A stretch of 64,000 nt of DNA, from NCBI GenBank assembly GCA_943736015.1, contig OX031062.1, positions 28,245,462-28,309,461 on the forward strand, written 5' to 3'. This document shows, one piece after another, positions 443 through 63,270 of the stretch. The stretch's first letter is position 1. Every line of letters begins with the position of its first letter. The DNA is from Tridacna crocea (lineage: Eukaryota > Mollusca > Bivalvia > Cardiida > Cardiidae). A model generated the notes under the pieces. That model was not told where the DNA came from and searched no databases. It saw only the letters and a list, made by a program, of their open reading frames with translations. The translations under genes and the position numbers were made by a program.

Positions 443-570
443 TTAACCCTTTACGACACCATGCCATGTTTCAATGAACATGAGGGAAGGGATTTTTGAA
501 AACTTTGTGGGTAACGGAGAAGATGTAAATAATTAGCATTTTCTCCATTTCCCTCAATGTTTTCTGTCTC
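443..570 (-). mobile_element. Type A element, decayed
   Basis: Starts TTAACCCTTTACGACACCA and retains the half-palindrome up to TTAGCATTTTCTCC; the far arm is lost. Confidence 0.6.
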
Positions 571-1037
571 TTTAAAGATGATAGTGTATAAAAATTTCTT
601 GCATTGTTGTTATCTGTATGGCTAAACCCAGTGGTATAGCCAAGCGAAAGTTGGAGCAGAAATTTAGTTACTTTCTAAATGTGGAATAAGACATACTTAG
701 AATGCATATTAGAACTGTTGGTGAATAATGGCCATTGACACATGCCCTAAAAATGGCATCAAGCCCAGCTCATTCTATTGTAAAATCACTAACTACTGTA
801 TACGGAAAATACTGTAAAATGGCAGTATGGATATGTAGCCTAGGCACCACTTTGTTATCCATTCTAGCAAACAGAAATTTCAAATGGATTTAAAATACAA
901 TACTGTCTTGTTTGAGATAAACAAAATGGTTGTAGAGTTTCTTTAATAAACAGGAGGTCTACTTTACTTTCTAAAATAAATAGCATGTTTTTAAAAAAAA
1001 AACCTGGCCACGGGGGTAAACCTACACACATACTTTT

Positions 1038-1105
1038 ATCTCTTTACCACACAATCCTGACTTTTTTGGACAAGCCTAAAATATAGTCCTTTGGTAATGA
1101 GTTAA
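1038..1105 (-). mobile_element. Type A element, deletion derivative of 68 bp
   Basis: Both outer ends are present (CTCTTTACCACACAATCC and TTTGGTAATGAGTTAA) but the whole interior including the palindrome is missing. Confidence 0.75.
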
Positions 1106-1346
1106 ATCATTTGAATGCCAGTCCCCAGATGCGCAACATAAAGGCAAATTACCATGGCACTTGGCTCTCTATATGAATATGCAATGACATCTACGCAAGC
1201 TTCCTTAAGCTGATTAACACATTTGTCTAATTGAATGATAAAAAAGCATTTCTTAATGACCATAAATAAAGCTCACAATACAATTTTAGTATGTGGCACT
1301 GTTATCACCAAAACCTGCACTTTAATTTTTTCCTTAGCACTAATCT

Positions 1347-1630
1347 GCATACTTAAAGTACATGTAATAGGAAAAACTTTTATGAATTCAAATTCTAGTT
1401 TACTTTCAAATTCTGACTGAAAAAAATCTGACTCACATGCATGTAGTAATAATGTAAGTTTAGGTAGATTTATACATACTTAAATACTGCATACTTAAAT
1501 ACATGTAATAGGAAGAACTTTTATGAATTCAAATTCTATTTTACTTTCAAATTCTGATTTTAAAAAAATTACCGGTAACTCACATACATGTAGTAATAAT
1601 TTAAGTTTCTGTAGATTCATATATGAGAAC
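1347..1630. repeat. Tandem duplication, two 142-bp units
   Basis: Units begin at 1347 and 1489 with GCATACTTAAA and share ATGTAATAGGAA, TTATGAATTCAAATTCTA and CATGTAGTAATAAT. The open frame here is a by-product of the repeat. Confidence 0.85.
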
Positions 1631-1706
1631 AAGTTTCTGGGGACTAAAATATGATGTGAAAATTATCAAAAAGTCTAGGTATTATTCCAGATTAATGATA
1701 AACCAT

Positions 1707-1951
1707 TTAACCCATTACGAAATGACACTATTTTAGGCTTGTCCAAATCGAAAGCATTTGCAGACGACAAAATAATAGTGACTGAAAATTTGAAATTTAT
1801 TTTGTGAAGGGTAGAAAACATTTTCCAACAATGTTTTCTACCCTTCCCAAGACAAATTTCAATTTTTGAGCCATACCAATACTTATTGTTGTCATCTGCA
1901 AATGCTTTCTATATGGACTGGTCTACAGTGTTTAGTTTGGTATAGAGTTAA
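1707..1951. mobile_element. Type A element with two left arms
   Basis: Both sides carry the AAAGCATTTGCAGA-type left arm in inverted orientation, around a short AACATTTTCCAACAATGTT centre. The usual right arm is absent, so this is a recombinant or a rebuilt symmetrical form. Confidence 0.8.
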
Positions 1952-2672
1952 TCAATCTCTACTCAGAGATTCCATGTCTTTAGCTATGTACTGTGTAAAT
2001 ACATAAAGATTTTAGTACATGAACTGATGAAAAGACGTGTTTTCAAATGAGGAGTCAAGGAAGAACCATAACTACATCAAAGATAAAGAAATTCAGAACT
2101 ACCACAAAAGTTTACCAACCCTTAACCATATAATAGTCTAAAAAAACTTAGAAATGGCAATGTAATTTTTGTCTCCTGTTCAAAAGAAATTTTCTCCTTT
2201 TTCTACAGTGCTTTCGGTCTTTCAAAAACAGTTCCCATTTTTTGAGATCATCTGGTTCTTATCTACCGGTACCAATGATTTTTATATTATTGACCAGTTT
2301 TGAAAGTCACTGTCTGGAACAAAGTTAACCTTCAGAGTAGCAAGAAAGATAAAAACAGTAAAATTTTGTTATTTCAGGGCCAATAGCAGATGGTAGGAAA
2401 ACCCAGATCCAAAATATTTTCAAACAATTCTAGAATAAATATATATCAAAACTGTTCTTTCTCACAGCATAGCAGCCTTATTGAAGTGAAAAAAAGAAAT
2501 AACAAAAAAAAACCCCTCCAACCAAAGGCTCCAAAAAGAAAAACATAAAAAATGTTAATAGATTAAAAAGAGTATCTCTAAAAAACACAATGAATAATAC
2601 TGTATCTAAAATATCTAAAACAAAAACCAAACACTCTAAAAATAATGACATACATAAAATATCTACCCAACT

Positions 2673-2902
2673 TTAACTCATTACCAAACGACAAAATTTT
2701 AGGTTTTTGTTCAATCAAAAGCATTTGCAGACAACAAAATATAACAGACTGAAAATTTGAAATTTGTTTTGAGAAGGGTAGAAAATATTGTGGGAAAAGG
2801 AGAAAATGCTGGTTACCAGCATTTTCTCCTTTTCTCAATATGTTTTCTAAAGGCTTCTTTCTCAGGGGCATCAAAAATAGGGATTGTAGGGTAATGGGTT
2901 AA
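2673..2902 (+). mobile_element. Type A element, full length
   Basis: TTAA-bounded. Left arm AAAGCATTTGCAGA, palindrome centred on GCTGGTTACCAGC, right arm ending GGTAATGGGTTAA. This is the standard 225-235 bp form used here to describe the family. Confidence 0.92.
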
Positions 2903-2959
2903 AAGAAATACAATTTTTAAACTATCAATCTAGAAACAGTCCAACAAAAAAAGTCCTTA

Positions 2960-3166
2960 TTCAGGTCAAAAGGGTGATGCATTTCTGTGATGCATAATAC
3001 CAAGCAAGTCATCACATAATTATGTATCCATAAAATCGATTTTGTCTACAAACCAAATGAATCATGAGGTAAAATGGTCCTCTGACACGAAAAAAGAATT
3101 TGACCCATATCAGCCTGCATGGAGTGCGCATGCTTACATTGGTCAACACTTTTTTTTGCAGATGTA
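2960..3166. repeat. Type D repeat, fragment
   Basis: Shares CAAGTCATCACATAATTATG, a GTCCTCTGACACGAAAA-like stretch and the TCAGCCTGCATGGAGTGCGC half-palindrome with the type D copies at 25.8 and 26.9 kb. Confidence 0.6.
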
Positions 3167-3449: not shown

Positions 3450-3684
3450 TTGACCCATTACCACACAATCCCTACTTTTGACGCCCCCGAGAAAGAAGCC
3501 TTTTGAAAATACTGTGGGCAAGGGAGAAAATGCTGGTAACCAGCATTTTCTCCTTTTCCCACAATGTTTTCTACCCAACTGAAAAAAAAAAAAAAAATCA
3601 ATTTTTGAGTTACCTTTATTTTGTCTTCTGCAAGTGCTTTCAATTTGGACCAGTCTAAAATTTTGTTGTTTGGTAAAGAGTTAA
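3450..3684 (-). mobile_element. Type A element, full length
   Basis: Left TTAA has decayed to TTGA; right end is TTTGGTAAAGAGTTAA. Palindrome centre is TGGTAACCA and a poly-A run interrupts the left-arm side. Confidence 0.9.
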
Positions 3685-3922: not shown

Positions 3923-4048
3923 TTAATCCCTTACCACACAATACCAACTTTTGATGCTCCTGGAAAAGAACCCTTTTGAAAAGATTGTCGTCTGCAAATG
4001 CTTTTAATTTGGACAAGGCTAAAATTTTGTCGTCTGGCAAAGAGTTAA
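3923..4048 (-). mobile_element. Type A element, palindrome deleted
   Basis: Ends are intact, but CTTTTGAAAAGATTG joins straight to TCGTCTGCAAATGC, removing the hairpin and part of one arm. Confidence 0.85.
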
Positions 4049-4594: not shown

Positions 4595-5778
4595 CTATGT
4601 GAAGTTTTCAATCGGGTTTGTTAAAGAACTTGGACGGTAAAGCTCTTCAGTTGAGCGTGTCAGATTGAAATAGCGAAACTTTGGAGATTTCTCTTCATCT
4701 TGATTAAATGTAACATTGATACTAGCATACGGGACTTTTGGAAATTTAATGGTGACTTCTGGTTTTCGAGCTCTACTTGTTGGTTTTTCTAGGTTGGCAT
4801 TACGCTGTCTTGGCACACCAAGTTGTCGACGTCGGGGCCTTCTTGGCTGTTTGGGAAAAGCATCTAAATTATAATATTCGTTTAATATTTCTTGAGTTTG
4901 TGTGCTGCTACTTACATGTGGATTATTAACATTACCTTTTGCCTGGGCTTTGAGGGTTCTCAGGTCTGTGGTTTCCACATTGTTGACAGTCAATGCAGGC
5001 CTGTCTTTCCCTTCCATATTTGGAATAGAATAATTTGATGATACTGAGGTTCTTGAAACAATTTTCTTGGAAGAGAGATTGGCAACATAGCTTGTTGTAG
5101 GAACAGCACTGGAACCAAACACAGAAGTTTTTGGAGTTATTGTAAATGGAGATGCTGGTGAAGATGGATGCTTGTCTGACTTCCCATATTCTGTTTCCTC
5201 ATCTTCCATGCGTCCTCTCTCAGAGTGTGCACCTGTTCCTCGTTCTGACAGTCTCTGACTATACACACTAGCATTATCACTAGCAGATTTATCTGCTGCC
5301 ACATTTGTATTACTATTGCTCTGACTACTATTATGACTATGATGGCCAACATTCGGAGATTTCTGAACATGAATTTTCTTAGTCCTTCCTGTATTATGTA
5401 CATTAGGGTCATGATTTTCTTTACTACCCGACTTTTTCACAGGAGCAGAGTTACTGTGTTTTTTACTGTCATTATCATCATCTTTACCATCACTATGTGT
5501 ATGTGGTCTTCGTATATTTCCGCTAGTTTTAGAACTTGTTTCTATTGAATTACCTGTCAGTTTATCATTAAATATCACTTGTTTCTCCTTCCGGGGAGAG
5601 AAGAGCTGTTCTGAGTCATTATTTTTTCTTGTGTTCATCCAACTTGGTCGTTTAATTGGGGATCCCTCAGCACACAAGCTAATTCCAATATAAGGAGGTA
5701 CAGTTACTACTGGCTGTTTATATGCTAGCTCAAAACGACCAATATCACAGTTCCTGTCCCATTTCCTATCAACCACAA
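4595..5778 (-). CDS. TTLL3: TTLL3-like exon 20, terminal coding exon and stop
   Basis: The acceptor TTTCAG lies just above 5778 and the phase matches exon 19. The first residues ([20 protein letters not shown], then [13 protein letters not shown]) are the conserved block that follows the catalytic domain in TTLL3/8. The following 340 residues are low-complexity, rich in Ser, Asn, Lys and Arg, with a short basic run PRRPRRR, and are probably disordered. The open frame continues past the splice site to 5824, but that extension is intron. The stop is at 4595-4597. No clear AATAAA was pinned down in the 3' flank, which soon runs into repeats. Confidence 0.9.
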
Positions 5779-8700
5779 CTGAAATTGTCAAATGAAAATG
5801 ATTATGGAACAAAAGAAAAACCACGCAGTTTATCTGATGATAGAGTTTTTCTTTAGAACAAAGAATAGCATACTCACTCCATATATTTGGGGGCTAACAG
5901 GACAATTTGCAATAAAATATGGTAACCCAACTTGAATTAACTCTTTACCACATAATCCCAACTTTTAACGACCCTGAGAAAAAAAGCCTTTGAAAACATT
6001 GTTGGAAAAGGAGAAAATGCTGGTAACCAGCATTTTCTCGTTTTCCCACAATGTTTTCTGTTCTTCCCAACATACATTTTTAGTCTTGAGTTGCATTTAT
6101 TTTGTCATATCATGCAAATGCTTTCAATTTGGACTAGCATAAAATTTTGTCACTTGGTAAAGGGTTAAGCCATGCTCTTTGAAAAGGGGGCTTAATGAAT
6201 CAGCAAAAAGTATGATCAAAACTTTTTGCTATCAGTCATTCTACCCCCCAGGTCAAGTCCTCTGTTATACTAGAGGGTGTTTATTGATTGGTAATTAATT
6301 TTATTCTTCCTTTGAATAAATCGTCTCCGAGATATGTTAGGCCCCCTTTTCCAAAGCATAGTTCATATCTAAGACCATAAAAATTAAATGAATAATTCCA
6401 GCTTCACAAAATTCTTCAATACTTAATATATATAATCATAGCTAGTGTTAACTCTTTACCAAACAACATTATTTTATGCTAGTCCAAATTGGAAGCATTT
6501 GCAGATGACAAAATTAATGTGACTCAAAAGATGAAATATGTCTATGATAGGGTAGAAAACAATGTGGGAAAAGGAGAAAATGCTGGTTACCAGCATTTTC
6601 TCCCTTTTCCACAATATTTACAAGCAGCTTATTTCTCAGTGTCATAAAAAGTCGGGATTGTTTGGTAAGGGGTTAACTCATCTCTATGATACATGCTCCC
6701 TGGCAGGTCGTCACATGATTGTGGGTTCATAAAGTCCATTTGGTTTAACTCATTACCAAAAGACAATATTTTAGGTTTGTCCAAATTGAAAGCATTTGTT
6801 TTGTGGGGATATAATAAAGAAGTTAAGCATATCTTTTTTTATTTTCAAATATTTAGCCCTTACCAGACCAAAATAGTTTTAACTACACAAGAGAAGAAAT
6901 CTTTTGAAAACTTTGTGGGAGAAGAGACAATGCTCTTAATCCATTACCACACAATACCGATTTTTGATGACCCTGAGAAAGAAGCTTTAAGAAAACATTT
7001 TGGTAAAAGCAGAAAATGCTGGTGACCAGCATATTCTCCTTTTCCTACACTGTTTCCTACTCTTCATGAAACAAATTTCAAATTTTCAGTCACTTTTATT
7101 TTGTCATCTGCAAATGCTTTCGATTTGGGCAAGCCTAAAATATGGTCATTTGGTAGTGAGTTAATCAGCATTTTCTCCTTTTTCCAAAATGTTTTTCACC
7201 CCATCAAAGAACTACTGTTTATTTATGCTACTTTCAAATTTGTCACTGGTGGATATTTCATCTTGGTAGAGTCTAAAAACCCCTTGTTTGGGATGGGAAT
7301 AAAAAAACCCTCTGCTTCAAATCATAAGGACATATTTTCTACACAGAGAGGGCAGAGTTACATACAAACCTTTAAGAGTATCCTCTAGAACACTGGAACA
7401 GAGCCTGGATGTCACTTCAGTACTACTTTCCATACTGGGACTAGAGTTGATTTCTATCAGCCATGGCTTATAGTCTGTTGTTAACATAAAATCAGCACCA
7501 TACAGCTCAAAGGATGCCTGGAAACAGGTACAAGAAATCTTGTTTTTTTCTTGTCTGTTTGAATACAGAATCTTCTAATAACATGTACCTACCCTATTTC
7601 CTTGTTTAACTCTTTACCAAACGACAAAATTTTAGGCTTGAAATTAGAATTGAAATTCGTTTTGTGAAGGGTAGAAAACATTTTGGGAAAAGGAGAAAAT
7701 GCTGGTTACCAGCATTTTCTGCTCTTCCCTCAATGTTTTCTAAAGGTTTCTTTCCTATGGTTGTCAAAAGTAGGGACTGAGTGGTAATGGGTTAACTCTT
7801 TACCAAATGACAACATTTTATGCTTGTCCAACTTGAAAAAGCATTTGCAGACAACAAAATAAACATGATTCAAAAACTGAAACTTGACTCTTCATGAAGA
7901 CTAGAAAACATTGTGGGAATATGACAAAATGCTGGTTTCAAGTATTTTCTCCTTTTCCCACAATATTTTTAGATGGCTTATTCCGATCCTCTGGTTGTAA
8001 AAACCAAGGGTTGTTTGGTACAGGGTTATCAAGTCTAACTTCATCTCTCTAGAACCTTTATATGAGCCTTGTCCTGTCAAAAGACAGTTTAATGCACCTG
8101 AAAAATGTATTGACCAAGGTCAGCTTGTGTGATCCATGCAGGCCAACTTGGGCCAAAAATCTTTGCTACTGGGTAATTTTTGGCATGCCATAGGACTATT
8201 GTACTTCATGACTCAGTCGGTTGTAAGACAGACTCTACTGACTCACTAGTCTGAACTACCTAGTTAAATCATTCATTGTATATCAGGGGACATTTTCTAG
8301 TTTTAATGACAAGCCATCTTTTTGTCTGAAATAGACTCACTGCAAATCAGAAGAGCAGTCTCTCAACCCATTACCACACAATCCCTACTTTTGACGCCCC
8401 TGAGAAAGAAGCCTTTTGAAAACACTGCGGGAAAAGGAGAAAATGCTGGTAACCAGCATTTTCTCCTTTTCCCACAGTGTTTTCTACCCTTCCCAGAACA
8501 ATTTCGATTTTTCAGTCACCTTTTTTCTGTCGTCCGCAAATGCTTTCAATTTGGATGGAGTCTAAAATTTTCTCGTGTGGTAAAGAGTTAACTCTTTACC
8601 GAACATCAAATTCACAGACTGGTTCAAATTTAAAGTTTGTCTAAGTTAACCCATTACCACACAATCCCTACTTTTGACGCCCTGAAGATAGAAGCCTTTA

Positions 8701-11700
8701 CAAAACATTGTGGGAAAAGGAAAAAATGCTGGTTTTTCCAACAATGTTTTCTATCCTTAACAAAACAAATTTCAAATTTTCAGTCACTTTTATTTTGTCT
8801 GCAAATGCTTTCGATTTGGACAATGTTAAAATTTTGTCGTTTGGTAATGAGTTAAAAAAAATTGCAGATGATTGAATGTTTTTTATTTCTTATTGAGAGG
8901 GTAGAAATATTCTTAAAAACATAGAAAATGCTGGCTACACGCATTTTCTCCCTTTCTACAATGTTACTAAAAGCCTTTTCCCTCTTTATTTTCAAACCAC
9001 ACAGTTTGGAAAATGCCTGCGATAAAAGCTTAATAATGTGCTACCAATTGCAACCATAATATTCAAGCACTTTGGGTATGTTCACATCTAGTCATACATA
9101 CATACCTTTCTGTATTCAACAAGATCCTGAGTTGCTAATAATGCACAGATAATAGCTTTTTTCATTCCTGGATATATGAGTTCATCCCACAAATTTGGCA
9201 ACTTCTGGCTCCTGTAAATACATGTATAGGAAATGATATCCTCTTATCTCACAATCCTGACTTTTAATGACCCCAAAAAGAAAGCCTTTTGAAAACATAG
9301 TAGGAAAAGGAGAAAATGCTGGTAACCAGCATTTTCTCATTTTCCCACTATGTTTTCTACCCTTCCTAAACCGAATTTCAGTTTTATAGTCACACTTGTT
9401 GTCTGCAAATGCTTTCAATATGGACTGGTCTTTAATTTTGATGTTTGGTAAAGAGTTAACTCTTCACTACACTGTTTCAAGCTTCATACACTTGATAAAG
9501 AATGCTTTTGAAAACATTCTGGGAAAAGGGGAAAAGCTGCAAACTCCTTTATCATCAATGTTTTCTACCTTATTCTAAGCCACATTTAATTTGTCATCTC
9601 TTTTCAATTTACATGTAGTTGGTTGGTTGCATTCGGTTTCTTTCCAAAGCCACAGACTGCTTTTCTCACATGCTTCAGCAGAGGTGAGAGGTGAAAATAC
9701 ACCGGAAAGAAAGTTTACCTCAACCAGGTATCAAACTCACAACCACCAGGTCACGAGTCTGACACTCTTACTATGAGCCACCCAAACGGGGCTTTCAATT
9801 TAGACCTGTCAAAATTTTTGTTGTATGGTAAAGGGCTAAAAAGTTGATTATTCAAATACAAGAATGCTTTAAGATATAACTTAATATAAACAGTGTGTAT
9901 TGATTTCAACGGCTGGTGCTGGAAAAGAGTAAAACGTAAGTAGAAAAAACAGAAAATAAATGGATATAGTCAAGAACACAGCTTGTAAAGTGAAGAATTA
10001 TTCATTATTGCCATGTTTAAAAGCACTTTTACTCCAAATATGTTAAAATAATCCATTTAACTCTTTTATCACAAAAAAAAATTTAAGACAGGTCCAAATT
10101 CAAAGCATTTGCAGACGACAAAATAGATGTGACTGAAAATTTGAAATTTGTTTTGTGAACGGTAGGAAACATTGTGGGAAAAGGAGAAAATGCTGGTAAC
10201 CAGCATTTTCTCCTTTTCTCACAATGTTTTCTACAGGTTTCTTTCTCTAGGGTGTCAAAAGTAGGGATTGTGTGGTAATGGGTTAAACCTTCCCTAGTAC
10301 CCCGAAAAACTTTTGAGGGCTTTAGAAAAACATTCTTGCAGTGTTTTGTATCAGTTCAAAGACAAAGTCCACTGTTTCAGTAACATTAAATCTGTTGTCT
10401 GCCTTTGGTGTGGAAAAGTCTGAAATTGTGTGTTTGACTAAGAATTCAGACATACTAACTTGATATAATCTTTAAATTCGTCATGAGTCCACATGTTTTC
10501 ATCAGGCAGTTCCTTTGCTCTTGGCCCATTTTTATAATGTTTCTGTATAGCATTGTTGGACAAGTGAATTGATTCATCATAGTCATCCAGAGTGTACTGT
10601 TGGGAGCAGAACCTGTCAAAAGATATTTTCCTAACTCTTTAACGAACAACAAAAAATTAGATTGGCCGAACTGAAAGCATTTGCAGACAACAAATCAATT
10701 TTGCACTGATTCCAAAATTTTTCTTTGGAATGTAAGAAAACATTATGGGAAAAGGAGAAAATTCTGGTTACTAGCATTTTCTCTTTTTCCCACAATAGTT
10801 CAAAGTGTTTCTTCCTCAAGGTCATTAAAACTTTGAATTGTGTGGTCAAGGATTAAATGGCCGACATTTGCCGCTACCCTTTAACTCTTTACCAAACAAC
10901 GAATTTAAAAACTGGTCCAAATTCAAAAGCATTTGCAGATGATTAACTGAAGGAACATTCCAGCCAAGTTTGGTCCAAATTGACCCAGCAGTTAAGGAGG
11001 AGTTGATGTTTAAAGAATTATTGATGACGCACGACAGACATCGGGTGATCCTAAAAGCTCCCCTTGAGCATGTTGTGCTCAGGTGAGCTAAAAAGGAGCA
11101 TTTACCTCAATGGCCTTTCCCCAGGATACTCCCATGTGACAATCATCACTAGCATGAGTCACACCAGAGTTGCCTATTTATAAATCTTATATGTTTGCCA
11201 GTGAGGACAACTAAAACTCGCACCAACTGGGACTTTAATGCTAACTTAAATGTCCTTTTCAATCAGTTGTCCTTTCAAGAGCAACAATCATGGCTAAACC
11301 CTTTTACAAGTTGAAATACTTTAACTCATTACCAAACGACAAAATTTTAGGTTTGTCCAAATTGAAAGCAATTGCAGACGACAAAATAAAAGTGACTGAA
11401 AATTTGTAATTTGTTTTGAAGGTTAGAAAACATTGTGGTAAAAGGAGAAAATGCTGGTTACCAGCATTTTCTCCTTTTCCCACAATGTTTTCTAAAAGCT
11501 TCTTTCTCAGGGTCATCAAAAGTAGGGATTGAGTGGTAATGGGTTAAACCATTACTGCACAATCCTGTGCTTTAACAACCCAGGGAAAGAAGGCTACAAA
11601 AGTCATTGTGGGAAATGAAGGAAAAACTGGTAACCAGTATTTTGTTCTTTTCCCACAATGTGTATTTCCAAAAGCAAATCTTAACATCTGAGCCACTCCT

Positions 11701-14700
11701 GACTTGCTGTCGGCAATTGCTGTGAATTTGAAAAAGTCTAAAAATGGTTAGATTGTTTTGAAAAAGGTAGAATATATAATTTTTAACCCTTTACCCTGAT
11801 TTTCTGTGTTTTTAGGACCCTAAATATGAAGACTTGGAAACATCATAAATAGATAATACCATAAAGCTACAAACATTTTTCTCTTTTCCAAAATTATCTT
11901 TCTCTATTTCAGAGTAAAAACAAATCGTATTAGACAGATTTAATTTGTTGTTTGCAAATGTTTTAACCATTTACTCCATAGATACTCATTTTGACGTATC
12001 AACAATAGACAGCTCTTGAAAACATTCGTAACGAGCAATTTCTCCTTTTCCCACAATGTTTTCCACTCAATTAGATATTTGTGTCTTCATTAGTCCATAT
12101 TTTTGACATCACATCTTTATTTGCTGCTGAAATGCAAGATCCTCAAATTGGCATATTATGTAAAGGGTTAAATATAACCAAATTTGAAATATTTATGTTT
12201 GGTAAGGAGTTAAACAGCCTACGAGTATTTTTTTCCACTAGTTTCATATGCCTTTAGCCTATCAGTTGTTTGGTATAGAGTCATTAAATCAAGAAGTTTT
12301 ATTGAAATACCTTAAATAGCTGTCCTGGTAGAAGTATATAGTCAGTGGATTCCAATCTGTTACTAAAAACCACTGCCGTATATCAAACTTGCAATTGTAG
12401 ATCAACAGGGGGCGCTCTGAAATTAATAGTATATAAAAACCATTCAAAGCTAAATACATGATTCTTTTTTGTCACACAGTCAAGCAGTCTCTAATAAATG
12501 CAAAGCAGCACATTGGAAAGATTAAATAACCACTTAAATATGAAATTATCTATCTGATCTCAATTTTTAACACAGGATTGCAACTCATGACCCTCCCAAG
12601 CAGACAAGTTTTTCCAAACACAATAATAAGCAGCTGCACATTTTCCAGAAATATTTTCCGTATCAATGAAAAGTATGACTTTCTTTCATTTCAAGGATTG
12701 TATTCTAAATGCTCTTTGTAAAAACTTTTGGTGGTTTTGGTAGGTCTATACAATACTTGGTTAACCCATTACCACACAATCCTGACTTTTAATGACCCAG
12801 AGAAAGAAGCCTTTTGAAAACACTGTGGGAAAAGAAGAAAATGCTGGTAACCAGCATTTTCTCCTTTTCCCACAATGTTTTCTACCCTTCCCAAACCAAA
12901 CTTTAATTTTTCAGTCACCTTTACTTTGACGTTTGCAAATGCTTTCAATTAGGACCAGTCTAATATTTTCTTGTATGGTAAAGAGTTAAACAAATAATTG
13001 AAGGACATACTATTTTCTCTGCCCAATTCATTTTTCAATAGTTTTAAGTTCTTCTGTAATTTCATGGTGACCAGATCTACAGGCCCCTGAGGGTCTGAAT
13101 AATTATTCAAAGACAGCATAATGGGTGGACATAATAAATAGTGAAAAGAAATTTCTCAAAACCAATGGTTTGGCATCAAGCCAAATTTGATAGGGTACTA
13201 GAACTTACTCTATCATACAATCTTTACATATTTCAAAGAACTGATATCAATAATGCAAACTTTGATGTGTAAACATGACAAAGTCATCAAATTGCTACTT
13301 TTCCTACACACATAGCTGGATTTTCTTTATTTTCCCTTGAGAAACACAAGTAATCTGTGCAAATTTCAAAATGAAAAAATAGGGACTTTATCCTGTAACA
13401 AGAAACATAACTTTTCAATGGCTACTTTTTCCTTACCAGAAGTTGCCTTTTTTTCATAATAAATAGACTTCAAGCTATAAATAAAAAGAAACTGTAGATA
13501 TTTGTTAAAAACCTGACCACAAATGCTGACTTTAGTGTGGAAACAAGAAATGCAAATTTTGAATTTCTAAGAGGCTTTTTTTTCCCTTGCTGGATTTCTT
13601 TTAAAATCAGTCAGGCTTACGCCATTGATAAGTTGAAAAAAATATGACCACAAATACAGAATTCATCACACTTGCAAGAAAAGGACTAATGGACAGATCG
13701 ATGTACTGACAAACAGACAGACAACAGAAACCATGCCATGACCTGAACTCTGCTGGCCTTTAGCCTGAAACTCTGCCATGTGGTAAAAAGTTAATATGTA
13801 AACCATTTACCACACAATTCCTACTTTTGACGCCCCTGAGAAAGAATACCTTTAGAAAACATTGTGGGAAAAGGAGAAAATGCTGGTTACCAGCATTTTC
13901 TCCTTTTCCCACAATGTTTTCTGCACTTCACAAAACAAATTTCAAATTTTCAGTCACTTTTATTTTGTCGTCTGCAAACGCTTTCGATTAGGACAAACCT
14001 AAAATTGTGTCATTTGCTAATGAGTTAAACATGCAAGATTGATAGCTTACCCATGTATTTTTGGACAACATATTTGTTATCTTTCCTGACTACTTGACTG
14101 TTGACTAGTTTTAACATGTCCTCCAACCTATCATAGCACTGAATTCCTGAAAAGAGAACAACCAAGGTTCTGGTTAGCTCTTTAACAAACGACAACATTT
14201 TAGACTTATCTAAATTGAAAGCATTTGCAGACGGCAAAATAAAGATGACTCAAAAATTAAAACTTGACTTTACAAAAGTGGAAAACATTGTGGGAAAAGG
14301 AGAAAATGCTGGCTACCAGCATTTTCGCCTTTTTCAACAATGTTTTCAAAATGCTTATTTTCCAGGGTCGTGAAAACCAGGAATTGTTTGGGAAAGGGTT
14401 AATAGATGCAACTCCTGTGACCAAATAGCAGCAGAAAACTCCAGCAGCATCCATGTAGAACATGTTCAAGATACTAAAAGGAGAAAGACAGCTTTTACAA
14501 ACATTTTATACGATACTTCTTGGAAATATCAGGGGTACTGTCTGAAATTGTTTGATAATGTAACAAATACTAGTCATACTATAGTGAGACTTTGAGCATT
14601 TGTTGAAAAATGTTAGACATAGCAATAAAGCAAATCAGGTATTGAAAAACCTTGTTGTTCTAGCACATTCTTTTTCCATTCAGTATATGATTATTATTAA

Positions 14701-17700
14701 GAATTCATTATGATGCAATCCCATGTTTGAACTCCTTACTAAATGACAAAATTTTAGACTTATCCAAATTGAAAGCATATGCAGATGACAAAATAAACAT
14801 GACTCAAAAACTGAAACTTGATTTTAAAAGAGTAGAAAACATTAAGGGAAAAAGAGAAAATGCTGGTTACCAGCATTTTCTCCTTTTCCCCCAGTTTTCA
14901 AAAGCCTTTTTTCTCAGAGTCGTGAAAACCAGAGATTGTTTGGTAAAAGATTAATGACCTGAAGGACAGAGATTTTTTAAAACAATGTTGGAAAAGGAGA
15001 AAAGGATGGTACATAGCATTTTCTCCTTTTCCATCAATTTTTACTACCCTTTCAAAGATAAGTTAGCTACATGTAATTAATAATCTGCAAATGCTTTCCA
15101 TTTCATTGAGTCTAACATTTTGTTGTTTTTGAAAAAGTTCAAGCCAATTTCTCTTACTGCCATGTTTCATAAATAATTTGCTGTATGAGAAATAAAAGTC
15201 ATTTGCAGGTGACAATTAGGTAATGTTGTTTATTCATATAAACAACACTTGATGATTAAAACCTATCCCTTGGATAACCTGGTAATATGTCACATACTGA
15301 GTAAGCTCACTGAACTGTGTTTTACGCTACTTTCAACATTATTTTAGCAAAGGCACAACAACTGCTTACTTATTCATACATGTGTGCAGTACCAGTACTG
15401 AGCCAGAACACTGAGGTGTCTTGCCCAAGGACACTACTTGACAAAGAAGTACAGATGTTTGGGAAAAAACCGAAACATCAGATTCAAGTGGCACTGATAT
15501 TTTGCATCAGTCACAGAGTTTATACTTTAAAAAATATTAGTGAAATCCTATACAAGTGGAATAATTCCCATATTACGTAATGATTACCTAGTTGTTTCAA
15601 TGAAATATTTTGTGGAAATTTCAACAGTATTTCAGTCATATTCCTGTAACTGCTTAACTTTTTATCTCTTTATCACACAATAAAAATGTAGACATCCAAA
15701 CTGAAAGCATTTACAGAATTTCACAAGTGGCACAAACCATGGAATTTGTGTTAGACAGAAAAAGGAAAAGGAGAAAATACTGGTTACCAGCATTTTCTCC
15801 TTTTCCAACGATGTTTATAAAAGGCTTCATGATCAGGGTTGTTTAAACCTGGGATTGTATGGTAAGACCTGTATAACCCTTTACTCCATAGATACTCATT
15901 TCTTCGCATTGCTTGTAGGAACTTTGGAAAACATTGTGGCAAAAGGTGAAATTGCTCATGACAAGCAATTTCATCTTTAGTCACAATGTTTTCAATGCTT
16001 CCAAAAGGTGTCATATACACATAAGAAACAGCTTCATCCTTGCTGTTATTTAGGGTCAATTAGAGATACCATAGAAATGCCTTATGGGGTAAAGGGTTAA
16101 TCAACTCCTCATTTTTTTAATAAGATTTACAAAAAGCTTCGATAACACACCTCTGCCTCTAGATTTAGCTCCTGGTTTTACTATCCAAACATTTTTGACA
16201 CCATCTAGTTCAAACTGAGGCATTACAGCTTTCATTCTGTTCAGTAAGTTTTCTACCTGCCCTAGAATTGTCACAGGCACTTGAAGAATGATAGCACCCT
16301 CGCTACAAACAGAAAACAATTGTTGTTGTTCTTGCATCATTAGCTTTGCTTTTTAACAATACCTTTTGATAAAATCTTTGTTTAGCTAGCTCTGAACCTT
16401 TGAAAATATCTCTTCTAAAAGAAGCCAATGTTTGCTGTGAGCATTTCTTCCTATTGTTAAAATGTTCTCATATGCAATCAATTATCAAACCTTAATTCAT
16501 ACCGATTATACTAGATCTTAACCTTTAGAACACTTTTCATGAATATTACTGCCATTGTAGCCAGTTTCAATTTGGATCAGATTGTAAAGATTATGCAGTC
16601 TGATCTATGATCTACACTGTCCGCTTTCCTGTGTTATGAATAGAGCAGCCTTGAATTTGCATTTGTTTGGGTTTTATTTCTATACTGGAAAAGTTTGTTT
16701 GGTTTATTCAGTGTTCTAATGGTTTGTTCTCTAGTCTTTTCTGTCAAACCTATCAACTCTAAAACACTGGAAAAAAGAACTAGGACTTAAGGATTTTATT
16801 GGAAGCATGATCTCTTTTTCATATAATGATTTTCAGAGTCAAGTATTGCATTTAAGGCTCATCAGATATGGTGTTGTTTAATCAAGCCTTCAAGGGTTAA
16901 TATAATAGAGTTTATTTCATCAGCTTGTGGTTAATATGGGGGTAACATTTGCCGAAAAAGGGAAAGGTATACAGAAATAAATTTTCACAGACCTTTCCCA
17001 AATATTTCCCCATATTAACCACAAGCTGATGACATAAATTATATATTATATTTCCTCTGATTATTTTGTCAATGAATGCAACTTTTAAAACTAGTGATAT
17101 CGAGTCAGTTTACCATATTTTCGGCAGGAGGAAAATATTCACTGTGATGGGGAAATAATTTCCCCCAGCTTAAATGATGTCATTCCTTTACCCATAACAT
17201 TTCTAAAATTAGACACATGAAATATAATATAAATGAGTTACAATAAACCATGAAAACTGTACTCACTGGACTATCTGATAATACCAGTTAATGAGTTCAT
17301 CCCACTGGGCAGCTGTTAATGGGTCTGACTGAAAAAGTTTAATACAAGAATATCCTGTGATTGACTGATCAGCTTATAATTAAATTTTTTCTATATTTTC
17401 CCCGATATTTTACCCATAATCCTCTGGAAAATCCATGTTAAATAGATTTACAGGAGTTATGCTCTGTGAAAAGGGGTGTAAAAATAGTATCGACCAAGGT
17501 CAGCCAGTTGACACAAGTAGAAACTTTTAGCTATTTGTCAATTTTCTGCATGTTGAAGGACCGTTTTGATCTTTGATTCAGTTGCTTACTAGATAAAATG
17601 GCTGGAAAAGGGGCATTCGGATATTTGCGTAAAGTGTCACACTTTACGACTACATTAGTTTTGTGCTACGGTAGACTTTCGCAAAACAGAAAATTACATA

Positions 17701-20700
17701 AAAACGGAAACGCAAAACAGAAAATTACATAAAAACAGAAAGTGCTATCTTGGATCAGCCTGTGCGGATTGCGCAGGCTGATCCAAGACGGCACTTTATG
17801 CAAATGTCCGAAAGCCCCTTTTCGCGTGTTGTAGGCCAAATGGATTTCAAAGATCTGTAATCAGAATTATGATGACTTGCTTGGTAAAAAGCATTGAATC
17901 CTCTTTTGCCGGAGCGTCACATTCACTTTTCCAAAAAGAAATTGTACAAGAAAGCCTCGAAAACTTGGTCTTAAGTTACTCAAAGTAAATAAATTCATTA
18001 CTGTTTGTTGGAAGAGGGAATACAAGATACTTGCTAACTTTAGTTTGTTTTGACTGCATTAACCCTTTACCCCATAAGGCATTTCTATGGTATCTCTAAT
18101 TGACCCTAAATAACAGCAAGGATGAAACAATTTCTTATGTGTATATGACACCTTTTGATAACATAGAAAACACTGTGACAAAAGGTGAAATTGCTCGTCA
18201 CGAGCAATTTCACCTTTTGCCATTTTTTTTACCAATGACTCCTACAAGCAATGCATAGAAATGAGTATCTGTGGAGTAAAGGGTTAATTCTTAACTTAAA
18301 CTCTTTTGTGCTATTACATTTTCCATAACCTTATACAAAAAAAATTGCATCAACTTCCTTCTGTAGTCACTGTAGATCAACATCAACCTGCATGGCTAAC
18401 AGAGCCTGTATTCACCAACAGGTCATAACCCTTATCCTGCTGTGTAACTTAAAGGACACCTTAACCCATTACCGAACGATAAATTTTTAGGTTTGTCTAT
18501 GTTTAAAGCATTTGCAGATGACAAAATAAAAGTGACTGAAAAGTTGAAACTTGTTTTGTGAAGGGTAGAAAACATTGTGGGAAAACGAGAAAATGCTGGT
18601 TTTCCAAAGGCTTCTTTCTTAGGGTCATCAAAAGTAGGGATTGTGTGGTAAAGGGTTAAAGTAGATAGTAGAAACTCAAGGGTTGCTATTTCGAAGTAAA
18701 ATTTTTACTTTGCATATATTGTGCAGTCTGATCTTAATCAACACTGTCTGCAAAAAGTCAGTGAGTTGCGATCAGCAGCCAAAGTCTTAATACTTTTGTA
18801 ACTACAAATCTTAACTCTTTACCACACAAATTCTGATTTTTAACGACCCTGAAAAAGAAGCCTTTTGAAGACATTACGTGAAAAGGAGAAAGTGCTGGGA
18901 AGCCAGCATTATCTCCTTTTCCCACAATGTTTTCTATCCTTTCCAAACTAAATTTCAATTTTTCAGTCACATTTATTTTGTCGTCTTCAAATGCTTTGAA
19001 TTTGGATTAGACTAAAATTTTGCCGTTTGGTGAAAGAGTTAAGCGTAGCACTCATAATGTACCTCTGCTGGTTGATCAATGTCTTCATGGTTTAAAAATG
19101 TCAGATATTTTTCACACTGCACCATGGATCTCTCCAAACATTTCATGGGTACAATTATTCTCTGCTTTTTCTTCTTTCTTCGGCTTGAATCTAGAGCTTT
19201 TGGCACTGAAATTAGACAATGAGACATTCCAATCACAGATTTGTTGTAAATTTAACCACTTAACCGTTTACCACATAAGGAAATTTAGACTTGTCCAAGT
19301 TGAAAGCATTTGCACATGACATTATTAGTCTTGCTGAATAAAAAGAATTTGTATCTGACAGGGTAGAAAATATTGTAGGAAAAGAAGAAAATGCTGGTTA
19401 CCAGCATTTTCTCCTTTTCCAACAAGGCTTTCAAAAGGCCATTCCCTACATGTCATTACAAGTTGGGATTGCATGGTAAAGACGTACATGTACCACACAA
19501 TACTTATTCTTAACATTTCTCAGAGAAAGAGTTTTTTTGGGGGGGAAAAGGAAAAATTCCATCACTTGAGCTGCATTGAATTTTTCAAATTGGATGACAC
19601 TATACATTTTGTCCTTTGGTAAAGAGTTGAGGCTGCATTAAAAACATCATTAAGTAAATTTATTATTTACTAGGATATTGCTTTTGTAGACTATTCCAAA
19701 TTCAAAGCATTTACACATGGTACGTGAATGCATCTCATATGACACGACTTGTCTTCAATATGTGACAGAAAAGATTGTGGAAAAAGGGGAAAATGTTGTT
19801 ACTACCATTTTCTCCTTTTCCCATAATGTTTTCAAAAGCATAATCTTTCACAGGAACATTGAATATTGGGATTGTGTGATGCAGGGTTTTGATCAAGAGC
19901 TTTACATATCCACGAGCCTTAACTATATGGGCCATAAATAAAAGCAGATACAGTGGACCATTCTTATCACAGACAATCCAAGATATAAAAGACAACACAT
20001 GTTTCGATACTTTATCTTTCCATGGTTTGAACTAGTTTGACAAAAGATCAATTCCACTGTACAGACAGACACCTTGAGTGACAATAGTGGCAAATCATCT
20101 TGAAGGTTATATATGCCACATCAACATCCCCTTTTTACATCCCCTTCTACATTGATCTTAAAATTCTTATAAAAGTTGTCACTGAGAAATAAACCAATTG
20201 TCATGTAAAAGTCATTTACTTTATTAAAGGCCCAGGGGCTGCCAAAAGCAAACAGTGCATGTGTTAAATTGTGTCTGAACTTAAATTGTACCACTTAAAA
20301 GTATGGATGGTTATAAAGATGGCAATCTGCTACTGTATGGTAAATCCAACAACAACTATTAAATATTCTTGAAACATAAATAATTATTCCAGACTGATAA
20401 ATTAGCATGAATAAAAAGTTGTTTGTGCATCAAAATTAAACCCCACAACAAATGTTTTACCAAGCCCAATCTAAACATTACAAAAACCTTTGCAGCAACT
20501 ATCTTTAATACATGTATAAAAATCAACATTCCACTGTGTGAAAGATCAAGGCCTTAATTTAAACAATAACATGCTCTTTTAAAACCAATGTATCACATTT
20601 GAAAGATTTGGTTACTTTTAATGACATGATAATTTATTATCTTTATTTTTTTTAAGAAGATTAAAATTTCTAAAATGCAACTCTCTCCCAAACAATCCCT

Positions 20701-59615: not shown

Positions 59616-60143
59616 AAGTATTATAGAAGTAGAAATATAGAGATTTTAGTAACAGAAGGGCAGACAGTGGAGCAAACCAGACTGAACAATTGGACTGAAA
59701 TTGAAAAGTGCATCATTATGGTCCAGGTAGGAATTGGGATGGTCAAAGGGAGATAAATCTGAAAAAAATCAACTTTTTATGACAGTAATCTCCCTTAACT
59801 GCAATCTACTGCCATGTACATGAACTGCTATCCTGCTTTACTACTGGTCTTCCATACAAAGTCAGTGTTGTTATGTTATAAATAACAATGAAATACACTT
59901 TTCTGGCTATACTTATATACACTGTTCAATGTTTACAGAAATTTCTGGTGAAAAAAGGTTTAAAACTGCCACTGGTTGGTTTGTCTACTTACTGAAAAAA
60001 CTTATTTCAGTTTTATAGTATTTTGATAGTAAGTAAATTGGGTTAAAAAGAAAGGAGGTATTGTTACAGGGCTGCACCAGGCATTAAACAGCTCTCATGC
60101 AGGGTCCAAAGAATCCATATATGTCCTCTCATATTTATGAGTC

Positions 60144-60322
60144 TTACGAACGATGTCCGTAACAAAGAAACAAATGAATAAATGCATGGCAGAAATATGG
60201 ATCGGAGCGGGATTCGAACTCCGAACTCCCGGACGCAAAGCCAATACCCTAACCACTGAGCCAAAGAGATATCTCCCTGACGCAGTAGCCAGGTATTGTA
60301 TTTAAATCGGGAGTATGCCATA
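60144..60322 (-). mobile_element. tRNA-derived SINE 2, copy 1
   Basis: On the minus strand the A box TTTGGCTCAGTGGTTAGGG and the B-box GAGTTCGAATCCC are both present at tRNA spacing, but the cloverleaf does not close, so it is a SINE head and not a functional tRNA. The tail contains a palindromic TTACGGACATCGTTCGTAAG. Confidence 0.82.
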
Positions 60323-60442
60323 ACACACCCCCTCTTAAAGTCATCATTTTATTGATGACTCAAAGCCTTATTAGGCAGGAAGTCCGATTTTTGGACAACA
60401 AATGGGATTAATGGCTCAATGGCCAATCCCGGACGAGCCCCC

Positions 60443-60625
60443 ATCTTACGAACAAAGTCCGTAACAAAGAAACAAATGAATAAATGCATGGCAGAAATAT
60501 GGATCGGAGCGGGATTCGAACTCCGAACTCCCGGACACAAAGCCAATACCCTAACCACTGAGCCAAAGAGATATCTCCCTGACGCAGTAGCCAGGTATTG
60601 TATTTAAATCGGGAGTATGCCATGC
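60443..60625 (-). mobile_element. tRNA-derived SINE 2, copy 2
   Basis: Nearly identical to copy 1 in the same orientation about 300 bp away; only a few substitutions were seen, so the duplication is recent. Confidence 0.85.
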
Positions 60626-60639
60626 AGGAAGGAGTGGTC

Positions 60640-61310: not shown

Positions 61311-61325
61311 TGTTGTTTTGGAAAG

Positions 61326-61432
61326 GGTTAAACTGAGGCCAGCCTGCACAGACTGTGCAGGCTGGCCTGAATCTGTGCACTATAGCTCATTTATCAAATG
61401 CCCTTTTTTATAGCCCATGGTTCATTTATTTT
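61326..61432. repeat. Type D repeat, fragment
   Basis: GGCCAGCCTGCACAGACTGT then GCAGGCTGGCC, right end TTTTTTATAGCCCATGGTTC. Confidence 0.6.
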
Positions 61433-61789
61433 CAATTAAAGCATTTATTTTCTAATGAGATATTGACAGGAAAAACAATTGCATGTAATTATCAATTACC
61501 TGATTAATTCTGACAATAGTATATAGGTCACATACACTTAGTTTGTAAAGCATATTGATATTTTTCTTAAATACATGTATAATACAGGTGTATACTTGTC
61601 ACTCTAAACAATGTGTATACTTCAGTCAAGTACCTCATTTAGACTAATTAAAAAACAATTCCACTTTTAGCACCTCCTCTAAACAAAACATTGAGGTAAA
61701 CAAAAAAAATAATTATAGCCATAACATCCTTTAAGCTTTACAATTTTTAATCTGGTTCAGATTTCTATTCTTCAAAAGACTAAGGCAAG

Positions 61790-62312
61790 GCCGTCGGAAG
61801 CGGTCCGACCAAATTTTCAGCCGAAAATGAAAAATGGCCAGACCAATTTTCGGAAAAAAAAAAAATGCGCAATATAAACCTCAAAAAATGCGCCAGAATG
61901 CACCAGAGATCGTCTTATTTTCAAAACTTTTCCGCGGGAGCATGCCCCCGGACACCCCTAGCATGGCTTAACCCATTACCAAACAACAATAGTTTAGACT
62001 GGTCCAATTTGTAAGCATTTGCAAACGACAAAATAAAAGTGACTGAAAATCTGCAATTTGTTTTGTGAAGGGTAGAAAACATTGTGGGAAAAGAAGAAAA
62101 TGCTGGTTACTAGCATTTTCTCCTTTTCCCACAATGTTTTCTAAAGGCTTCTTTCTCAGGGGTATCAGAAGTAGCGATTGTGTGGTAATGGGTTAAATGC
62201 ATAATATTTTTTTCCGGGGGAGCATGTCCCCGGACCCCCCCAAGCATGGCTTGACGACTTCGTCGTTCGCCATACTGGCCGGACCAAATGAAATTTCCTT
62301 CCGACGAGCCTG
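61790..62312. mobile_element. GC-rich element with inverted ends, split by a type A element
   Basis: Ends AGGCCGTCGGAAG and CTTCCGACGAGCCT; next to them GGTCCGACCAAATTTT and GGCCGGACCAAATGAAAT. GAGCATGCCCCCGGACAC on the left side is repeated as GAGCATGTCCCCGGACCC on the right. Confidence 0.65.
61968..62196 (+). mobile_element. Type A element nested in the GC-rich element
   Basis: TTAACCCATTACCAAACAAC to GTGTGGTAATGGGTTAA; centre TGGTTACTA. Confidence 0.9.
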
Positions 62313-62394
62313 TAAGGTCAACAACTAATGCAGCCTGAAAATAAAACGTTAGGTAAACTTGGCTTAATACCTCAATGTCCTAATACAGTATGTT

Positions 62395-62623
62395 TTAACT
62401 CATTACCAAACGACAATATTATAGACTTGTCCAAATTGAAAGCATTTGCAGACAACAAAATAAATGTGACTGAAAATTTGAAACTTGTTTTGTGAAGGTT
62501 TGAAAACATTGGGGAAAAAGAAGAAAACGCTGGTTACCAGCATTTTCTCCTTTTCCCACAATGTTTTCCAAAGGCTTCTTTCCCATAAGCATTAAAAGTC
62601 GTCATTGTGTGGTACGAGGTTAA
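62395..62623 (+). mobile_element. Type A element, full length
   Basis: TTAACTCATTACCAAACGAC to GTGTGGTACGAGGTTAA. Confidence 0.91.
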
Positions 62624-62848
62624 CTCTTAACCACTCGCCAAAATTTTAGATTTGTCCAAATCAAAAGCTTTTGCAGACAACAAATTTAATGTTACTCACA
62701 AATTGATGTTAAATTTGGGTGAGGTAGAAAACATTGTGGGAAAAGGAGAAAATGCTGTTTACCAGCATTTTCTCCTTTTCCTACAATGTTTTCAAAAGGC
62801 TTCTTCCTTATGGTCGTGAAAACCAGGCATTGTTTGGTAAAGGGTTAA
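62620..62848 (+). mobile_element. Type A element, full length, joined to previous copy
   Basis: TTAACTCTTAACCACTCGCC to TTTGGTAAAGGGTTAA, sharing TTAA with the copy before; centre GCTGTTTACCAGC. Confidence 0.9.
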
Positions 62849-63164
62849 ATGGTAAATTCTTATAGATTGATTGATGTTACTGTGTTTAATGCCATTTTCA
62901 ACATTATTTCATTTATATCACAGCAGCAAGCGCAACTGTTCATGCATTCCTGTAGTGTCTTTTACCACTCCTACACATAATGTTCTAACCAAGCTGCAAG
63001 TTACTTCCCCATAAAATCATCATGGAAACTATGATCAGACAGCAGTGTGTGAGGAATAAGTCCTGTCACAATGACTATAATCATCAACCCTCAGAAAAAC
63101 AATGGCCAAGCCATGCACTCAAACCAGTAGCCCCTGGACTCAAGTAAACTCCTACAGACAACTC

Positions 63165-63270
63165 TTTGTGTTTTGTCTCAGAAAAAAATCCAAATATTAT
63201 GGCAAAAGGAGAAATTGTTCAATATACACATTTTCTCCCTTTTCCACAATGTATTACTGAACATTCATGT
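63165..63270. mobile_element. Type A/B-like element, decayed
   Basis: GGCAAAAGGAGAAATTGTTC and TTTTCTCCCTTTTCCACAAT retain the stem pattern. Confidence 0.5.

Follow-up and report, generated by a model that had tools for sequence, protein, structure and literature searches.

MITE copies in the 64-kb window

The window, by which we mean the whole 64-kb stretch of Tridacna crocea DNA analysed, carries between positions 443 and 63432 a zone of 117 non-overlapping MITE fragments, 112 belonging to family A and five to family B. The fragments, detected by nhmmer using models built from window copies, amount to 20,598 bp or 32.2% of the window, and 53 of them are near full-length. Rebuilt models gave 118 fragments and 32.3%, and no match was obtained by nhmmer in five dinucleotide-preserving shuffles of the window. 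An earlier note on this DNA had estimated about 90 copies occupying roughly a quarter of the window; the abundance is evident, but both figures were undercounts. Its observation of both orientations agrees with the near-equal strand split (57 plus and 60 minus). The 14-mer TTAACCCATTACCA was found 79 times in the window with two or fewer mismatches, against 1.08 expected. The window copies probably lie in introns.

The reference copy of family A is full-length, from TTAA to TTAA, at 24680–24908 on the plus strand. It consists of the left TTAA and terminal inverted repeat (TIR) at 24680–24693 (plus), the central palindrome at 24787–24853 (plus; DNA folding predicts 31 pairs, a single mismatch and a loop of 3 nt), the right subterminal motif AGGGGCGTCAAAAG at 24870–24883 (plus), and the right TIR with TTAA at 24895–24908 (minus). 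Further full-length copies of family A are located at 2673–2902, 23625–23853, 29703–29931, 54457–54685 and 61968–62196 on the plus strand, and at 3450–3684, 8363–8591, 12761–12989 and 37426–37659 on the minus strand. The family B copy at 18059–18287 (plus) differs from family A in its arms and has a related palindrome; the other four, identified by nhmmer, are at 15874–16100 (minus), 21456–21681, 40870–41098 and 42613–42845 (all plus). Deleted forms were also present: a 126-bp derivative at 3923–4048 (minus) retains both ends and has lost the palindrome, and a near-full copy at 18461–18659 (plus) lacks one palindrome arm (model columns 139–168).

Eight pairs of copies in the window stand end to end with a common TTAA. 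These include A-A pairs at 7606–8028 (plus; TTAA at 7792–7795), 11321–11748 (11544–11547), 20679–21128 (minus; 20901–20904), 27295–27702 (27497–27500) and 62395–62848 (plus; 62620–62623). Random choice of TTAA predicts 23.9 two-sided junctions, or by our own arithmetic about 8 after correction for lost and truncated ends, and therefore no preference for self-insertion is needed.

Structure and families of the element

The MITE is 229 bp in length, and its core plan is TTAA, short terminal repeats, two arms and a central palindrome. Among 57 copies TTAA is intact at the start in 44 and at the end in 39. The terminal repeats, CCC(A/T)TTACCA and CTC(A/T)TTACCA, bear out the inverted-repeat ends that the earlier note had described as TTAA plus CCC/CTC(A/T)TTACC. 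They agree with the piggyBac type (CC(C/T)T, 12–19 bp); the CTC left end and the CCCA variants deviate from strict CC(C/T)T, yet are the two ends of the helper piggyBac described below. The ends are asymmetric, with CTCATTACC at the left and CCCATTACC at the right, and the end sequence of family B is CCCTTTACCCCATAAGG. Short size, homogeneous length and high copy number are as in MITEs, coding capacity being judged by length. Assignment as a foldback or snap-back element was rejected; the terminal repeats are short and the palindrome is internal (columns 108–174 of 229). No match was found in a phage collection or in viral contigs.

Families A, B and C have the terminal repeats and the central palindrome in common, but not the arms. 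Among the three families the arms are 35–63% identical, against 84–92% for the central 33-bp stem. Between the A and B consensuses identity is 0.39–0.46 in the arms, 0.84 in the palindrome and 0.86 in the TIRs, so that the palindrome core is far better conserved than the arms and level with the TIRs. Family C is represented by four copies at four loci near transposases and by 10,217 exact cores genome-wide; no family C cluster was observed among 80 copies (55 from the window and 25 from a random sample). A supposed family D of three copies was dropped, as it was a single nested copy seen three times, within the helper copies L021, L049 and L050.

Abundance in the genome

A sample of twenty 3-kb stretches was drawn from the 18 largest contigs; MITE matches were detected in 19 of the stretches, and the mean cover was 21.6% (bootstrap 15–29%). 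An exact count over the whole genome gave 199,253 occurrences of the 29-nt hairpin core and none of the backward control. The two estimates agree at about 1.3–1.4 million fragments, or about 22% of the 1.05-Gb genome, and near-full copies are estimated at about half a million. The MITE and its fragments thus make up roughly one fifth of the T. crocea genome. The window holds 18 exact cores against 12.2 expected, and is richer than average, about 1.5-fold, without being exceptional. Its 3-kb bins differ from the sample (Mann-Whitney p = 0.015), and six of the 20 sampled loci have a cover above the window mean. The density had been taken as local in the earlier note; this was not borne out, and a local hotspot was rejected, the sampled genome being similarly dense.

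A resident piggyBac with matching ends

By profile search 118 matches to PF13843 were found in the same genome. A 7.2-kb piggyBac is present at five loci, three of which were compared and proved 99.6–99.9% identical over 6.4–7.2 kb. The transposase exon of this helper is intact: at five loci a 492-aa frame without stops matches PF13843 with E = 2.1e-86 to 3.1e-86. The product is similar to piggyBat (9c0f, E = 5.7e-40) and piggyBac (6x67, E = 4.3e-36); its DE, DN and GVD-DQ motifs align with 6x67, similar motifs align with 9c0f, and its cysteine-rich C-terminal end aligns with 9c0f. We take the three aligned aspartate motifs to be the catalytic aspartates of a DDE_Tnp_1_7 transposase. TTAA flanks the left end at four of five loci, the left flank of locus C9 being GATT, and the right end at all four loci where that end was located; at locus C10 it was absent from the expected place.

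At the right end, MITE and helper agree at 32 of the last 40 nt. Outside the TIR, 19 of 27 nt match, a value reached by none of 20,000 shuffles, and the motif AGGGGCGTCAAAAG stands at the same distance from the right end in MITE and helper. Scored as TIR and subterminal parts, the right ends agree at 9/10 and 19/26. For seven other resident piggyBac elements the best agreement with any end of the MITE was 8/10 and 14/26, and they were set aside as helpers, the comparison covering eight piggyBac elements with clear ends out of a set that has several more (such as L009/L012, L020 and L026). L019 and L023, both among the non-matching elements, are relatives of one another. The ends of families B and C found no match among the eight, and there may be piggyBac helpers other than the 7.2-kb element. 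The helper right end also carries four copies of GGCGTC(A/G)AAA, spaced 35 bp apart. Beyond the TIRs and the right subterminal stretch, helper and MITE arms have no likeness, and the palindrome occurs within the helper solely as nested MITE copies. Family A copies with helper-like ends (CTCATTA left or CCCATTA right) form five groups, 36 copies in all, lying 4.7–9.1% from their group consensus, against 16–22% for the remaining six groups with a total of 59 copies, a measure biased low for small groups.

The search proposed in the earlier note, for a piggyBac transposase element with matching ends, has thus led to the 7.2-kb element, which matches at both left and right. This resident element is probably full-length and could move the MITE. 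The earlier assignment as a non-autonomous piggyBac-like element gains from the TTAA ends, the TTAA-sharing junctions and, for family A, a resident piggyBac matching both ends.

Pairing of the central palindrome

DNA folding of segment 24785–24855 of the reference copy gave −35.8 kcal/mol (z = −15.4), and the palindrome noticed earlier is real. It had also been called unusual for piggyBac; short subterminal palindromes are known there, but the long central stem still seems unusual, and no report of such a stem in a piggyBac MITE was present among the literature matches listed.

Stem pairs are intact in the consensus at 33 of 33 positions in families A and C and 32 of 33 in family B. Where stem pairs differ between families, both partners have usually changed (4 of 5 for A-B, 3 of 3 for A-C and 3 of 4 for B-C; hypergeometric P 0.0001–0.0007). 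Apart from one A-C mismatch in B, the differences exchange one Watson-Crick pair for another, and none of the three consensuses contains a G-U step. The 122 near-full copies behind this comparison include nested duplicates within helper copies, and conservation and pairing statistics were therefore redone on the 80 copies mentioned above. In the tight A1 group (n = 45), stem conservation is 0.944 against about 0.86 in the arms. The two palindrome arms of one A1 copy agree at 0.8967, against 0.8954 for arms dealt among copies, and four compensated cells were observed against 2.5 expected; without a within-copy excess, resident copies are evidently not being corrected. Over all 65 family A copies the agreement is 0.8810 against 0.8731 when dealt (22 of 2000), a slight excess that leaves room for some correction. 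Eight of 13 deletions of at least 10 nt fall in the palindrome (p = 0.026), indicating that the stem is fragile yet retained.

Exact cores were also counted genome-wide for the pair 133/149 on the A background: 199,253 were unchanged, 793 carried a one-sided change (one of two one-sided variants) and 36 a two-sided change. The two-sided swap is rare beside the unchanged core, a point against the account given below as far as these three counts go.

Proposed origin and role of the palindrome

Taking the account as a whole, we hold with good confidence that the elements are non-autonomous piggyBac TTAA MITEs of at least three families, A, B and C, that they would be served by the helper lineage, and that the palindrome would act in cis. 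In this mechanism, the transposase of the helper lineage would excise the MITE and reinsert it at TTAA sites. Every insertion would duplicate its TTAA, so that targets would never be exhausted and end-to-end copies would build up at saturation. Less surely, the palindrome may aid the amplification of a copy, by extruding as a DNA hairpin or cruciform or by offering the transposase a dyad-symmetric dock, and selection among source copies may keep it paired while the arms drift. The palindrome could then be a cis-acting module selected during amplification. More specifically, and only tentatively, the stem may be a transferable amplification module of dyad-symmetric or hairpin-forming DNA, in which pairing itself is selected and which would make an exceptionally prolific MITE out of ordinary piggyBac ends.

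The same piggyBac MITE might instead carry its palindrome as a passive relic: a founder would have acquired it through template switching or an inverted duplication, and it would since have been inherited or re-made without function. Internal inverted duplications are an easy route to MITEs, and a pairing excess is absent within A1; nevertheless, the mostly compensated differences between families, the higher conservation of the stem than of the arms and its retention despite concentrated deletions make a relic rather unlikely. We give a similarly low rating to the view that the palindrome arms are kept alike by the copying mechanism, through hairpin-templated repair at rare steps, and not by selection. 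Quasi-palindrome correction is known from other systems, and the small paired-cell excess across the 65 family A copies would fit, but A1 is without such excess and correction is unseen on that time scale. Selection of the stem as a transcribed RNA hairpin is more doubtful still. RNA folding of the complete element gave a stable structure (−92.5 kcal/mol, z −10.6), and the window copies are probably intronic; against this, the element moves as DNA, its inter-family changes avoid G-U steps, save for the A-C mismatch in B, and no Rfam match at gathering score was detected in the window.

The remaining alternatives concern the source of the copies. Local tandem amplification or a preference for self-insertion would agree with the eight end-to-end pairs, but with that number expected at random and the density genome-wide, it is very improbable. 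Least probable of all appears mobilisation by a different superfamily, for example Kolobok, whose elements also target TTAA, the asymmetric left and right ends and the subterminal repeat matching the resident piggyBac.

How a cut-and-paste enzyme gives rise to huge numbers of MITEs is a long-standing question. In this single genome the natural variants number in the hundreds of thousands, a helper with matching ends is probably still alive, and the stem is apparently kept paired by selection; consequently the role of internal MITE sequence becomes directly testable. If the stem is indeed an amplification module, it was retained across unrelated arms while one element group filled about a fifth of a genome. 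That group may be the densest of any MITE known so far.

Comparison with known systems

Human Alu is an RNA-copied SINE, short and non-autonomous, with near a million copies that make up about 10% of the 3-Gb human genome. The Tridacna MITE is likewise short and non-autonomous, but is a cut-and-paste element filling about a fifth of a genome of about 1 Gb. On these figures, the density of one DNA-transposon group may equal that of Alu or even surpass it.

The closest elements in print are the CMITE families of Acropora corals, small TTAA-flanked piggyBac-like MITEs of several families (PMC2872659). CMITEs also occur in tandem, and the TIRs of one family are identical to those of a resident piggyBac (PMC2872659). 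They measure about 100 bp, and their number in A. millepora was estimated at 1,600 (PMC2872659); the corresponding values here are 229 bp and about half a million near-full copies. Compared by description only, the internal region of CMITEs (75 bp) varies less between families than their TIRs do (PMC2872659), whereas in the Tridacna MITE TIRs and core are conserved to an equal degree. The text of that paper uses neither the word palindrome nor hairpin, whereas the Tridacna core is a palindrome with a 33-bp stem and compensated changes.

piggyBac and piggyBat (PDB 6x67 and 9c0f) belong to the same transposase family as the helper and have a similar cysteine-rich C-terminal region (PMC11707139). 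The TTAA target and CCC-type ends are likewise common to them and the Tridacna elements (PMC2872659). Their end recognition involves subterminal repeats and palindromes, including an imperfect palindrome at bp 107–120 in piggyBat (PMC11707139). These palindromes are short (14–19 bp) and subterminal (PMC11707139), in contrast to the central one of about 67 bp in the Tridacna MITE. A further difference lies in the Tridacna helper, one end of which has four subterminal repeats of 35 bp. BogoMITE of Blepharisma is Pogo-derived, with TAA/TTA target duplications and 8,000 copies, and differs in these respects from the Tridacna MITE; there too, a single MITE family is the most abundant repeat of the genome and autonomous partners are few (PMC9942856).

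Abundance and target choice of the MITE

Profile searches with models made from the window copies detected 117 non-overlapping fragments of the MITE, the 229-bp TTAA-flanked piggyBac-like element, of which 53 were near full-length. These fragments occupied 32.2% of the window, and no match was obtained in five dinucleotide shuffles of it. The abundance was recognized in the earlier note, but its figures of about 90 copies and about a quarter of the window were too low; its range, 443-63270, held except for one weak final fragment ending at 63432. Since an exon matching Pfam TTL, the tubulin-tyrosine ligase domain, with E = 8.4e-20 is located within the window at 7320-7574 on the minus strand, the MITE copies herein are probably intronic. 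The next exon may be a 432-aa open frame on the same strand (4598-5893), for which Pfam gave no match. The window also carries two tandem arrays (84-bp units at 31748-32328 and 165-bp units at 35282-36080) and two neighbouring copies of another repeat with near-identical open frames (60098-60301 and 60352-60603), which, as judged by eye, also adjoins one copy of the helper piggyBac described below, on contig C9. No tRNA gene was detected in the window by ARAGORN.

The genome of 1.05 Gb is assembled into 31 contigs, 18 of which contain 99.96% of bases; the window corresponds to C7:28245462-28309461. In twenty 3-kb stretches taken at hand-picked round-number coordinates from the 18 largest contigs, the MITE occupied 21.6% (bootstrap 15-29%); 19 of the 20 stretches matched, with 80 fragments, 28 of them near full-length by a cut slightly looser than that for the 53 of the window, and the reversed stretches gave no match. 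The share was 11.7% in twenty 8-kb stretches around transposases, which include the piggyBac bodies. The exact 29-nt stem core was counted directly 99,906 times on the forward and 99,347 times on the reverse strand, and its backward control was absent genome-wide. The core count, scaled by the ratio of fragments to exact cores in the window, gave an estimate of 1.31 million fragments making up 21.8% of the genome, and the sample gave 1.40 million and 21.6%. The density had been claimed as locally extreme, but the MITE is genome-wide. The window is only somewhat richer: its 3-kb bins exceeded the sample (p = 0.015), 18 exact cores were observed versus 12.2 expected, and its mean was exceeded by 6 of the 20 loci.

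Eight end-to-end MITE pairs in the window have one TTAA in common. Simulation of 117 insertions, random among 450 starting TTAA sites, gave 23.9 junctions, or about eight after multiplication, by our own arithmetic, by the fraction of recognisable ends with intact TTAA. As about eight were expected and eight seen, random choice of TTAA is enough. One TTAA would become two at every insertion, so that targets would not be depleted, and saturation of TTAA targets is likely.

Element families

The family A consensus consists, from left to right, of TTAA, C(T/C)C(A/T)TTACCA, a 90-nt left arm, the palindrome (columns 108-174 of the model, where 33 pairs surround a single central base) and a right arm of 37 nt, which is followed by the end in inverted orientation. 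Its copies diverge from the consensus by 16.4% on average (112 copies, partly redundant), and those of family B by 3 to 10% (10 copies). By this divergence, the family B copies of the window, at 15874-16100, 18059-18287, 21456-21681, 40870-41098 and 42613-42845, are judged to be young. Identity between families B and A was 0.39-0.46 in the arms, 0.86 in the ends and 0.84 in the palindrome. Family C, known from four loci mutually 86-93% alike, is 0.63 identical to A in the arms and 0.92 in the palindrome, and the genome contains 10,217 exact copies of its core.

A resident piggyBac with matching ends

The piggyBac transposase domain gave 118 matches in the genome. A 492-aa stop-free frame with nearly equal scores was found at five loci, on contigs C3, C5, C9, C10 and C15, and comparison of the copies delimited this helper as a 7,217-bp element on C3 (59403556-59410772). 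The C3, C9 and C15 copies are 99.6-99.9% identical across 6.4-7.2 kb. The transposase exon matched piggyBat (9c0f) at 5.7e-40 and piggyBac (6x67) at 4.3e-36; a second open frame upstream (MSDSDSDNSVFEF...) may be the first exon. Several older MITE copies, two of them end to end, are nested inside the helper (L055/L049/L053, C3:59403556-59410772), and therefore a moving helper spreads its own parasites. Partial transposase matches are clustered at C13:4.48-4.61 Mb, C8:50.4 Mb and C8:56.7 Mb, each cluster covering at most about 130 kb.

The C15 helper copy starts TTAACTCATTACCA. At four of the five loci a TTAA adjoins the left end, C9 having GATT instead; the right end, reading inward CCCATTACCG, is flanked by TTAA at all four loci where it was located, and on C10 it was not found at the expected place. 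The helper has CTC at the left and CCC at the right end, and the commonest family A ends, TTAACTCATTACCA on the left (19/112) and TTAACCCATTACCA on the right (23/112), have the same asymmetry. For the full-length reference copy at 24680-24908 (+), 32 of the right 40 nt are identical to the helper, and AGGGGCGTCAAAAG is common to both at equal distance from the right end. Outside the TIR, 19 of 27 nt match the helper right end, which was equalled by none of 20,000 shuffles. This helper end carries GGCGTC(A/G)AAA four times with 35-bp spacing, two of them lying within the exact 14-mer. The piggyBac transposase with matching ends, for which the earlier note had proposed a search, is thus resident in the genome, both its ends being like those of family A.

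Helper and MITE ends agreed at 9/10 positions of the TIR and 19/26 subterminal positions. Seven other resident piggyBac elements (six end types) were rejected as helper because they reached no more than 8/10 and 14/26 against any MITE end; the comparison covers elements with determined ends, and several further resident elements fall outside it. Among those compared, none had family B ends. The five family A groups with helper-like CTCATTA left or CCCATTA right ends (36 copies) diverged by 4.7-9.1% from the group consensus and the remaining six (59 copies) by 16-22%, where groups of fewer than three copies were left out and small groups are biased low.

Directly internal to the right end of a different piggyBac, in locus L011 (ends CCCATTTATGCCT), lies CGTCCCC-TTTT-GGGGACG (L011:5619-5636), an inverted repeat of 7 bp that is reminiscent of subterminal palindromes bound by piggyBac transposases. 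A further one, at L015:2729-5716 (ends CCCTTTATATAC), separates two MITE parts (model 1-84 and 98-229) and looks as if inserted into a MITE.

Conservation and possible role of the palindrome

Conservation within the MITE is highest in the core (about 0.91 versus 0.79 in the arms). In A1, a tight group of 45 family A copies, that of the core was 0.944 versus about 0.86 in the arms, or 0.87 without CpG columns. Between consensus sequences, stem differences were changed on both sides in 4/5 (A-B), 3/3 (A-C) and 3/4 (B-C) cases (hypergeometric P 0.0001-0.0007, the three comparisons not being independent). Within A1, agreement between the two arms of a copy was no higher than between arms shuffled among the copies; therefore, resident copies decay freely, and it must be where new source copies succeed that pairing is imposed. 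Over all 65 A copies the agreement was slightly in excess (0.8810 versus 0.8731 for shuffled arms), which subfamilies or a little correction would be expected to produce. In the A background, column 133 was changed alone 793 times and together with 149 in 36 cases; about three paired changes are expected if the other one-sided variant is as frequent as 793, an assumed figure from which we draw no conclusion.

The MITE is abundant and ends in TTAA, and a helper with matching ends is resident; the piggyBac lineage of this helper would likely mobilise the MITE in trans. Tentatively, the stem could act in cis as a paired module favouring amplification. Dimers of the piggyBac and piggyBat transposases use their C-terminal domains to bind short palindromes (PMC11707139), and a dyad-symmetric transposase dock would therefore be a sensible form for this module. 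The module might otherwise be an extruded hairpin, which is favoured, without deciding against the dock, by the Watson-Crick pairing over the full length and by the fragility of the stem. The folding energy calculated for the stem as a single DNA strand is -35.8 kcal/mol (z -15.4). Of 13 deletions of at least 10 nt, eight affected the palindrome (p = 0.026), and all eight had one boundary at columns 139-148 near the centre, as would suggest an extruding hairpin, gap placement in the palindrome being uncertain. No identical deletion was shared by two copies and no stemless family was found among 80 near-full copies, the search model including the stem; from three further derivatives in two pieces the stem is partly or wholly missing.

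Comparison with known MITEs

Bivalve MITEs were kept unclassified in a transposon survey (PMC10294476). Among the matches listed in the open-licence literature, there was neither a palindromic piggyBac MITE nor one of comparable abundance. The nearest precedent is the coral CMITEs (PMC2872659), which are also TTAA MITEs, occur in tandem copies and have a core that is conserved from one family to another; their report poses the role of the core as a question. New here are the scale, the palindromic core with compensated changes and the matching helper at several loci.
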